A DNA stretch of 64,000 bases from assembly GCA_944392985.1 (NCBI GenBank), contig CALXYL010000006.1, positions 1-64,000 of the forward strand, written 5' to 3'. The notes beneath the pieces were generated by a model. The model was not told where the DNA came from, did no database searches, and saw nothing but the letters and a program-made list of their open reading frames with translations. The DNA comes from an uncultured Spirochaetaceae bacterium. Its GTDB lineage: Bacteria > Spirochaetota > Spirochaetia > Sphaerochaetales > Sphaerochaetaceae. Shown one piece after another: positions 54,839 through 57,141 of the stretch. A program made the translations under genes and the position numbers. Every line of letters starts with the position of its first letter. Within the stretch, counting starts at the first letter, position 1.

Positions 54839-55393
54839 CTATTTAGGGAAGGCTGTTTCCACGTCGAGTCCGACGGAACGGAAGGTAAGCTCAACGACAA
54901 GGCGTGTAATCCTCTCGACGCTCCATTCGAATCCGCTTGATATCCATTCCCTGACGATGCCGACTACGCCATTCACGCAGTATATGAAGCTCATTCTCTT
55001 CTCGTCCTTGTCAGCAACTGTCGCTATCTCATTGTATTTTGCCATGGCAGCTGAGATGATCTGCTCTCCAAAGGATGTGTCAGCAGAGGAGGAAAGCAGG
55101 ATGCGGAATGTTGTGGCATTGTCCTTCAGGTACTGCATGAAGGGAAGTATCGATTCATAGAAGGGCTTTCCTCCGACGTAATCCGGCAGCTTGGAGAGTA
55201 TGTCCGCCTCAATCTCCTCTATGAGATCACGTGGACAGGAATAATAGACATAGAATGTGCTTCTGTTGACTGCCGCTTTCTGGCAGAGTGCCTTTATCGT
55301 GATGTTCTCGAACGGAACAGTCCTCAGGAGCTCTATCATCGCTTCCTTGAGGTATCCTTTTGTCCTTGCCACCCGTGGATTCTCTGCTTTCAT
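54839..55393 (-). CDS. TetR-family transcriptional regulator
   Basis: A 184-residue protein with the TetR helix-turn-helix at the N-terminus (FENITIKALCQKAAVNRSTFYVYY) and a helical C-terminal domain of the TetR_C type with GVVGIVREWISSGFEWSVERI. It is divergent from the guanine deaminase gene and upstream of the tryptophanase-like gene on the same strand. It may control either. There is no Shine-Dalgarno site before the ATG, and a -10-like box ends 8 bases upstream, so its message may be leaderless. Confidence 0.85.
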   Translation of the reverse strand: MKAENPRVARTKGYLKEAMIELLRTVPFENITIKALCQKAAVNRSTFYVYYSCPRDLIEEIEADILSKLPDYVGGKPFYESILPFMQYLKDNATTFRILLSSSADTSFGEQIISAAMAKYNEIATVADKDEKRMSFIYCVNGVVGIVREWISSGFEWSVERITRLVVELTFRSVGLDVETAFPK

Positions 55394-55401
55394 AGATGGA
55401 T

Positions 55402-55429
55402 GCTATCTGCAGCTTCCACCACCTGTCAA
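55402..55429 (-). promoter_or_regulatory. Promoter of the TetR gene, predicted leaderless
   Basis: On the minus strand TTGACA (55424-55429), 16 bases, GATAGC (55402-55407), then 8 bases to the ATG at 55393. Confidence 0.45.
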
Positions 55430-55471
55430 TCAATGCTTCTTCCTTCAGTATGTGTTTTGCGTGTGGTTTGA

Positions 55472-55500
55472 TGCACAGGCAGGAAAAACCGTGTTATGAT
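55472..55500 (+). promoter_or_regulatory. Promoter of the guanine riboswitch-guaD unit
   Basis: TGCACA (55472-55477), 17 bases, TATGAT (55495-55500). Transcription would begin at about 55507, exactly at the start of the aptamer's P1 stem. Confidence 0.45.
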
Positions 55501-55507
55501 GATGCTG

Positions 55508-55572
55508 TGCTGTATAAGCCCCTGATAAGGAGGGGCGTATCTACAGGCTGCCGTAAAAAGCCCGCTACAGCA
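55508..55572 (+). ncRNA. Guanine riboswitch aptamer before guanine deaminase
   Basis: All conserved parts of a purine aptamer are present. P1 is TGCTG (55508-55512) with CAGCA (55568-55572); J1/2 is TATAA; P2 is GCCCCT with AGGGGC closing the loop GATAAGG; J2/3 is GTATCTAC; P3 is AGGCTG with AAGCCC closing the loop CCGTAAA; J3/1 is GCTA. The C in GCTA is the specificity base that pairs with guanine. The ribosome-binding site GAGGAGGG begins one base past P1, so the switch probably works on translation. The downstream gene degrades guanine. Confidence 0.88.
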
Positions 55573-55584
55573 GAGGAGGGATAT

Positions 55585-56841
55585 ATGGCAGCATTCGCGA
55601 TTCATGGTGATATCATATGGGCGGAACGCCTTGGGAAGCTGGAATACATTGAGAATGGGTATATCGTTGTCGATGGTAGCGTGATTGCCTCGGTTTCCAG
55701 TGAGAAGCCGCAGGGCATCAAGGTCATCGATGAGTCGCATCACCTTGTGATACCCGGACTTTCAGATCTCCATCTCCATGCGCCTCAGTATCCTTTCATG
55801 GGTATGTATATGGATGAGGAGCTGCTGACGTGGCTTGAGAAGCACACGTTTCCTGAGGAGGCGAAGTATTCCGATGCCGCCTACGCAGAGAGGGCATACA
55901 CGCAGTTTGCTGATGATCTTAAGCGTAGTGCCACAGTCAATGTATCCGTGTTCGGCACGATACATACGGATGCGACCCTGATGCTGATGGACAAGCTCGA
56001 AGAGGCCGGGATCGCGGGGTATGCAGGGAAGGTGTCGATGGACAGGAATTCCCCTCCAAGCCTGACAGAGGAGACTGATAGGGCTGTCGAGGAGGTGAGG
56101 CGCTTCATTGAAGAGGGGGCCTCTCATGATCTTATGAAGCCGATCATAACTCCTCGCTTCATTCCGTCCTGCAGTGACGCCCTTCTTGAAGCGCTGGGAC
56201 GCATTGCTGCGGATAGGGGCCTTCCTGTGCAGTCGCATCTGGATGAGAATCCATCGGAAGTCGAATGGGTGAAGGAACTCTGCCCATGGGCAGGAAGCTA
56301 CGCCGAGGCGTATGATCATTTCTCCCTTCTCGGACAGCGTTCGATCATGGCCCATTGCGTCTGGATGCAGGAGAGCGAAATCGATCTCCTTTCCAGGCGT
56401 GGAAGCTATGTCGCGCACTCACCATCATCGAACCTGAATCTCTCCTCAGGCATCGCGCCGATCAGGAGATGCATAGACAAGGACGTCAACATAGGGCTCG
56501 CGACTGATGTGGCAGGAGGGTCGACCCTGTCAATCATGCGCGTCGTGCAGGATGCTGTCACTTCAAGCAAGATGCGGTGGAGGTATATCTCGAAGGATGA
56601 GAAACCGCTTTCCTTCCCAGAGGCGTTCTATCTAGCAACAAAGGGTGGCGGTTCATTCTTCGGCAGGACGGGATCCTTCGAGCCTGGCTATGATGCTGAT
56701 ATAGCCGTGCTTTCAGAGAAGCGCTGCAGCACAGTGATCAGCAGTGGTCTATCGCCCGCAGAGCGCCTTGAACTCTATGCATACCGCTCCCCGGATGAGG
56801 ATGTGGTGGCAAAGTTCGTGAAAGGAAAACGGATCATATGA
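55585..56841 (+). CDS. guaD: Guanine deaminase
   Basis: A 418-residue amidohydrolase. Metal and substrate residues are seen in LSDLHLHAPQYPFMG (His 63 and 65), PVQSHLDEN, SIMAHCVWM and LATDVAGGSTLSIM. The HAPQYPF block is specific to guanine deaminase. It converts guanine to xanthine and ammonia. The start at 55585 follows GGAGGG; the longer reading from 55396 would run through the riboswitch and is rejected. The guanine aptamer directly upstream supports the substrate independently. Confidence 0.93.
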   Translation: MAAFAIHGDIIWAERLGKLEYIENGYIVVDGSVIASVSSEKPQGIKVIDESHHLVIPGLSDLHLHAPQYPFMGMYMDEELLTWLEKHTFPEEAKYSDAAYAERAYTQFADDLKRSATVNVSVFGTIHTDATLMLMDKLEEAGIAGYAGKVSMDRNSPPSLTEETDRAVEEVRRFIEEGASHDLMKPIITPRFIPSCSDALLEALGRIAADRGLPVQSHLDENPSEVEWVKELCPWAGSYAEAYDHFSLLGQRSIMAHCVWMQESEIDLLSRRGSYVAHSPSSNLNLSSGIAPIRRCIDKDVNIGLATDVAGGSTLSIMRVVQDAVTSSKMRWRYISKDEKPLSFPEAFYLATKGGGSFFGRTGSFEPGYDADIAVLSEKRCSTVISSGLSPAERLELYAYRSPDEDVVAKFVKGKRII

Positions 56842-56874: not shown

Positions 56875-56880
56875 GTGAGC

Positions 56881-57141
56881 ATGGAAAACGAAGTACAGGA
56901 AAACCGCATTGCGGTCATTGGCATCATTGTCGAGGATAAGGAGATGGCGGAGAGCGTCAACACGCTCCTCCATCAGTATAGCGGGTATATCATCGGGCGG
57001 ATGGGTCTGCCGTACCAGAAGAGGGGCATGAACATCATCAGCGTTGTTGTTGATGCCCCTTCTGATGCGATATCAGCGCTCTCAGGAAAGCTGGGCAGGC
57101 TGAATGGAGTGTCAAGCCAGGTGCTTTATACAAAGGCCTGA
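56881..57141 (+). CDS. TM1266-like regulator (iron-only hydrogenase system type)
   Basis: An 86-residue ferredoxin-fold protein of the NikR C-terminal/ACT-like class named after Thermotoga TM1266. It reads RIAVIGIIVEDKEMAESVN, then YSGYIIGRMGLPYQKRGMNI and ISVVVDAPSDAISALSGKLG. In other genomes it occurs beside [FeFe]-hydrogenase maturation genes (hydEFG); none are visible here. A GTG two codons upstream touches the -10 box, so the ATG is preferred. Role unknown. Confidence 0.8.
   Translation: MENEVQENRIAVIGIIVEDKEMAESVNTLLHQYSGYIIGRMGLPYQKRGMNIISVVVDAPSDAISALSGKLGRLNGVSSQVLYTKA

Follow-up and report, generated by a model that had tools for sequence, protein, structure and literature searches.

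A guanine-type riboswitch predicted to activate guanine deaminase translation through its P3/L3 element in uncultured Spirochaetales

Guanine-I riboswitches are the textbook OFF switch. Members of this class (RF00167, e.g., B. subtilis xpt-pbuX) share with the guanine deaminase (guaD) leader described here a three-way junction, the L2/L3 contact bases, C74, and the length of J2/3. They differ in that those described are OFF switches that act mostly by transcription termination on genes for synthesis, salvage, or uptake, whereas the guaD leader is predicted to be a translational ON switch for a degradation gene, and in that the guaD-leader aptamer carries G73 and a mismatch at the base of P3. 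The Vibrio vulnificus add adenine riboswitch (PMC5847336) shares the scaffold, translational ON control in which the Shine-Dalgarno sequence and AUG are hidden without ligand, and a purine deaminase target, this behavior being predicted on the guaD side. In contrast with the guaD leader, which is of the guanine type, lacks a separate expression platform, and would use P3/L3 as the switching strand, add recognizes adenine, has U74, and carries a separate expression platform, in which P4A uses P1 nucleotides 76-81 as the switching region (PMC5847336). The P1 3' strand is likewise the switching strand in the other purine riboswitches that we checked, and according to a 2024 review, the first helix is where switching sequences are found most often (PMC10907184).

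Guanine-II riboswitches (PMC9295807) share with the guaD leader a guanine ligand and an ON direction, predicted in both, but are found in Paenibacillus and other Firmicutes, have insertions in J2/3 and J3/1, and precede phosphoribosyltransferase genes; guanine is bound by the guanine-II 92 PRT example at 8 nM or better (PMC9295807). The original prediction for the locus had described an ON-type guanine switch as unusual; this needs qualifying, because the predicted ON direction of guanine-II in Paenibacillus (PMC9295807) provides some precedent. Xanthine-II riboswitches also share the predicted ON direction and differ by U51G and by insertions in J2/3 and J3/1 (PMC9295807), while the genes associated with xanthine-I (NMT1) include a guanine/8-hydroxyguanine deaminase-like amidohydrolase, although its fold is unrelated (PMC7373994); the ligand of these two classes is xanthine or uric acid, unlike the guanine type of the guaD leader. 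No report pairing a guanine riboswitch with guanine deaminase was found in the non-subscription literature searched. Based on the modeling presented below, the predicted translational mechanism, the predicted P3/L3 switching strand, and guanine deaminase as the target of a guanine ON switch would be new.

The window, i.e., the whole stretch of DNA analyzed, comprises 64,000 nt from an uncultured gut Spirochaetaceae bacterium (GCA_944392985.1, contig CALXYL010000006.1, positions 1-64,000, forward strand). A cmscan search of the window matched the RF00167 Purine model at 55490-55587 (+) with 50.6 bits (E 1.3e-5), placing the element in this family by the curated gathering score of 37, and a whole-genome scan recovered the guaD-leader aptamer as the single purine aptamer (E 9.4e-8). 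The features of the locus are as follows.

55492-55500, + strand: extended -10 element TGTTATGAT, from a consensus scan; predicted transcript start at about 55506-55508, i.e., at P1
55508-55514 and 55566-55572, + strand: P1, 7 Watson-Crick pairs
55508-55514, + strand: P1 5' strand UGCUGUA, from the covariance model and folding
55566-55572, + strand: P1 3' strand UACAGCA, from prefix ensembles
55518-55536, + strand: P2/L2 hairpin GCCCCU-GAUAAGG-AGGGGC, with P2 strands at 55518-55523 and 55531-55536 (6 pairs)
55537-55544, + strand: J2/3 GUAUCUAC, with U47 and U51 retained and A at nucleotide 48
55545-55563, + strand: P3/L3 AGGCUG-CCGUAAA-AAGCCC, the proposed switching element, from the unconstrained minimum free-energy fold and prefix ensembles
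55564-55565, + strand: J3/1, with G73 and C74; C74 (55565) is the guanine-specificity base
55574-55579, + strand: Shine-Dalgarno sequence AGGAGG, followed by the 5-nt spacer GATAT and then ATG at 55585
55584-55592, + strand: UAUGGCAGC, start codon and codons 2-3, predicted partner of P3-5'/L3 in the ligand-free fold (pairing 0.99)
55585-56841, + strand: guanine deaminase gene guaD, 418 aa, from TIGR02967, Amidohydro_1, and PDB relatives

The P1/P2/P3 junction is formed by 7, 6, and 4 pairs, respectively. U22 (in the J1/2 sequence UAA), U47, U51, and C74 are all present, and the GG of L2 (GAUAAGG) and the CC of L3 (CCGUAAA) needed for the loop-loop contact are both there at the level of sequence. 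The J2/3 is uninterrupted and, at 8 nt, of guanine-I length, so that the one-nucleotide J2/3 insertion of guanine-II is absent, as is its J3/1 insertion. Position 73, usually an A, is a G in the window and in most guaD-linked relatives; since this position is reportedly variable in nature, G73 was not taken as class-defining. P3 is short and has an A54.C72 mismatch at its base. Judging from the covariance-model score, the aptamer is real and, by C74, of the guanine type. The original prediction of a complete guanine aptamer at 55508-55584 agrees exactly with an element running from the 5' end of P1 to the base before the ATG, and the specificity base it named is confirmed by C74 and by the covariance-model score; the aptamer is complete with respect to the pocket and P1, but G73 and the P3-base mismatch had gone unmentioned.

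An extended -10 element (TGnTATAAT-like) is located 5-15 nt upstream of P1 in most guaD loci, and its position in the window predicts transcription from about the first base of P1. The Shine-Dalgarno sequence begins about 1-2 nt past the end of P1 (55572), and because promoter, P1, Shine-Dalgarno sequence, and ATG are so closely spaced, the leader appears to consist of the aptamer and the ribosome-binding site alone. No terminator was found between the aptamer and guaD, nor is there room for one, which, with the Shine-Dalgarno sequence about 2 nt past P1, argues for control at translation, as originally proposed. The original assignment of the target as guanine deaminase was also upheld: the protein scores 361 bits against TIGR02967 (E 5.8e-108), slightly below the cut-off of 375.4, matches Amidohydro_1, and has 2i9u and human guanine deaminase (2uz9) as its best PDB relatives. 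The guaD frame is also open upstream across the entire riboswitch (55396-56841, giving 481 codons if counted from the ATG at 55396), an extension that is probably due to chance and could mislead gene callers. Directly 3' of guaD, at 56878-57138 (+), is a gene for a small protein of the TM1266 family, which comprises putative regulators of the iron-only hydrogenase system.

To describe the two predicted states, the leader was folded with Turner-2004 parameters, which, as in all folding reported here, count neither tertiary contacts nor ligand. When the aptamer was forced, the 100-nt leader folded at -28.6 kcal/mol and left most of the AUG region free; unconstrained, it folded at -37.0 kcal/mol, P3 having opened to pair with the start site instead. 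In this predicted ligand-free fold, P3-5'/L3 covers the start codon in a 9-bp helix (helix A, 55547-55555:55584-55592), the CCC of the P3 3' strand pairs with the Shine-Dalgarno/spacer region in a helix of 3 bp in the window (helix B, 55561-55563:55578-55580), and the P1-5' bases CUGUA (55510-55514) re-pair with UACAG (55542-55546), which reaches J2/3. P3/L3 is the AUG partner at 1.00, while the share of P1-3' in Shine-Dalgarno pairing is 0.15. Thus, as in add, the ligand-free fold hides the Shine-Dalgarno sequence and AUG and the aptamer fold frees both in silico, but the P1 3' strand is not the switching sequence in the window. When 60 nt of coding region is included, the predicted gain for the window falls from 4.8-6.0 to 1.5 kcal/mol. 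A different alternative fold, in which TATA and CCC of the J1/2-P2 segment pair with the ribosome-binding site, had been put forward originally; forced, it reaches -24.5 kcal/mol and so falls short of the aptamer fold by 4 kcal/mol and of the best fold by 12.5 kcal/mol, and P2 stays formed with a probability of 1.00 in every ensemble computed, so this fold was discarded.

Prefix ensembles place the refolding at the point where codon 2 has been transcribed. For a transcript ending at 55572 the aptamer is formed (P1 0.90, P3 0.97), and it is the most stable fold for ends from 55572 to 55587 (P1 0.87-0.95, P3 0.88-0.97). From 55590 on, P1 and P3 are at 0.00, helix A at 0.72-0.99, and helix B at 0.97, and the AUG, unpaired with a probability of 0.98 before, is unpaired at 0.00 once the transcript reaches 55590. 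On the basis of these models, we consider it probable that, in the presence of guanine, this RF00167 guanine-type riboswitch turns on guanine deaminase translation, with P3/L3 as the switching element. Transcription would start at about P1, and the aptamer would form first. As expected from knowledge of the family, guanine paired to C74 would lock P1, P3, and the L2-L3 contact, and with P1 and P3 of the nascent aptamer kept closed, the ribosome-binding site and AUG would be free and ribosomes could therefore load. In the computed ligand-free path, P3 would open once codon 2 has emerged, its 5' strand and L3 pairing with the start-codon region, its 3' strand with the Shine-Dalgarno sequence, and P1-5' with J2/3, leaving the gene off. 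Since the OFF fold is about 8-9 kcal/mol better, even allowing for the uncounted tertiary contacts, the choice probably falls while the RNA is being transcribed and not at equilibrium. As a point against activation, the ligand might be unable to undo so stable an alternative fold.

Because a single nucleotide separates P1 from the Shine-Dalgarno sequence, a ligand-stabilized P1 might itself hinder the ribosome. A rival reading is classical repression, with guanine stabilizing P1 and the three-way junction blocking 30S loading. We regard such an OFF switch as unlikely, though it has in its favor that the gap between P1 and the Shine-Dalgarno sequence is 1-2 nt in most compact loci and that the guanine-I riboswitches described all turn genes off (PMC11477304, PMC9295807). 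Against it, repression of a guanine-degrading enzyme by guanine would be metabolically backwards, the Shine-Dalgarno sequence itself lies outside P1, 11-44 nt separate the two in other relatives, and an OFF switch of this kind would not need the unusual complementarity between native start sites and aptamers described next.

As to activation, comparison of aptamer-forced and free ensembles gave an ON response in Shine-Dalgarno accessibility at 29 of 30 loci, a result that proves little because forcing any aptamer always frees downstream sequence; swaps, start sites from the same genome, and aptamer removal were therefore added as controls. Aptamers and start sites were recombined among 21 compact loci with 5000 permutations, the values from which take no account of phylogeny and should not be read as strict probabilities. 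Native combinations had a higher opening cost for the Shine-Dalgarno sequence (6.18 vs 4.66 swapped, with 0 of 5000 permutations as good) and for the AUG (4.29 vs 3.28, permutation 0.001), as well as a stronger duplex between P3/L3 and the start site (permutation 0.008). When the window aptamer was placed before 297 start sites from a 400-kb sample of its own genome, only 1% matched the native AUG and Shine-Dalgarno opening costs jointly, and P1 averaged 0.67 compared to 0.00 in the native leader. Ranked among these 297 genes, the guaD start site is in the top 2% for AUG opening cost and the top 10% for that of the Shine-Dalgarno sequence, its translation initiation region as a whole being only in the top 14%. 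Averaged over 31 loci, opening the AUG cost 4.0 kcal/mol with the aptamer in place and 1.1 kcal/mol after its removal, the corresponding values for the Shine-Dalgarno sequence being 5.8 and 2.4 kcal/mol. The ON sign suggested in the original prediction is thus also what folding and the comparative controls predict.

Helix B, between the P3-3' strand and the Shine-Dalgarno sequence plus spacer, was stronger in native than in permuted combinations (-6.33 vs -5.02, 13 loci, p 0.0006), and its covariation persisted in 11 lineages after two close relatives were dropped (p 0.0017). Matched changes include AACCC/GGGUU (L016), CACCU/AGGUG (L020), ACUCCU/AGGAGU (L029), and AGAACC/GGUUCU (L030). No covariation was found for helix A (permutation 0.087), which lacks such support because the start-codon helix is nearly invariant, and synonymous recoding of codons 2-7 revealed no preference for helix A pairing. 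With neither signal, helix A could be a by-product of Met-Ala-Ala codons meeting an invariant L3, in which case activation might instead proceed through the P1 strands, as in add, or through some other mixture. The start site indeed pairs mainly with P1-3', P1-5', J2/3, or a tail hairpin in L007, L010-L013, L026, and L032-L035 (with P1-3' in L026 and L032, and with P1-5' in L010, L012, and L033), and in L013, L018, L021, and L027 it pairs with a hairpin that apparently takes the last bases of P1-3'. We nevertheless give this possibility little credence, given that P3/L3 partners the AUG at a summed pairing of at least 0.96 in the window and 11 other loci and that helix B covaries. Despite the different partner strands (P1-3', P1-5', J2/3), modeling predicts the ON sign throughout the guaD-linked loci.

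A purine aptamer was detected in 34 of 139 genomes of the family. It is upstream of guaD in 31 Spirochaetales genomes, 25 of the window's genus and 6 of a second genus, and the close relatives for which a name is available are uncultured Spirochaetales/Spirochaetaceae, Candidatus Ornithospirochaeta stercoripullorum among them. One second-genus genome (G007) has a second copy before purE in addition to the guaD-linked aptamer (L002 is the same-family purE locus), and in a third genus of the family the aptamer is upstream of guaB (L004, L005, and L014). This division of targets between guanine degradation and purine synthesis also favors the ON reading for guaD. Terminators, seen as a hairpin with a U-rich tract, are present in L004 and L005, weak in L002, and unclear near the L014 aptamer; because they are only partly visible, the OFF sign of the purE/guaB copies rests mainly on gene identity, such genes being usual targets of repression by guanine.

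Position 73 also separates these groups, being G in most guaD-linked aptamers and A in all four purE/guaB-linked ones, and G73 may tune affinity or kinetics for an ON design. Combined with the P3-base mismatch, it could alternatively indicate that the ligand is another purine, such as xanthine, 8-oxoguanine, or a nucleoside, given that known variants with altered junctions changed specificity (PMC9295807). The chance of this appears slim: U22, U47, U51, and C74 are kept, J2/3 is of normal length, the U51G and the J2/3 and J3/1 insertions of xanthine-II and the J2/3 insertion of guanine-II are all absent, and guanine is the substrate of the encoded enzyme. That the aptamer is decayed or non-functional and a divergent TetR gene controls guaD instead is very improbable, since the pocket and the seven pairs of P1 are preserved and 31 loci with 55-65% protein identity retain the aptamer, even though the window score is moderate and several relatives keep guaD, some with an upstream TetR gene, while having no detectable aptamer. 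A TetR-type regulator does adjoin guaD divergently in the window (54839-55393, -), where it is a possible second control layer, and TetR-like sequence is seemingly also upstream of the aptamer-less guaD genes L120-L124.

Beyond the single locus, we would put at about even the chances that these leaders constitute a conserved class of guanine-activated translational riboswitches without a separate platform, in which L3 and the P3 strands double as anti-start-codon and anti-Shine-Dalgarno sequences and a helix of the binding pocket competes with the ribosome. If the proposed activation is true, guanine would switch on its own disposal in a feed-forward detoxification loop, and the family, in one case a single genome, would contain the guaD switch and the purE/guaB OFF copies as a matched pair. 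Switching through P3/L3 would depart from the first-helix rule within a very compact leader of about 80 nt, which is easily tested and usable as a guanine-inducible part, and with 31 natural variants that share one predicted sign but differ in platform, the evolution of expression platforms would become open to direct tests.

Elsewhere in the phylum, the genes that follow the aptamer are purE and what appear to be further purine synthesis and transport genes, with the exception of one genus. In this genus, g92 of another order, which is probably Brachyspira, the aptamer is located before 8-oxoguanine deaminase (L063, L064-L072, and L074; PRK08203, 591 bits vs a cut-off of 532), about 35 nt upstream of the Shine-Dalgarno sequence, and the ribosome-binding site is paired in the free-state folds of L063 and L070. 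This is possibly an independent ON-type deaminase switch. Four second-genus guaD leaders (L141, L144, L146, and L148) have purine-aptamer-like junctions (GUCUCUAC, GCUACC) with degenerate L2/L3 loops; only L148 surfaces in a permissive Rfam scan, at 33.4 bits, and by sequence all four are candidates for purine aptamers without the loops, which the model would have missed. In the guaD aptamers of L034 and L035, J3/1 ends in UUCC, L3 is longer, and the P1-3' strand, extended by CA (AUCAUUCA), could pair by complementarity with UGAAUGAU, which spans the start codon. Both loci also have a glycine riboswitch a few kilobases downstream.
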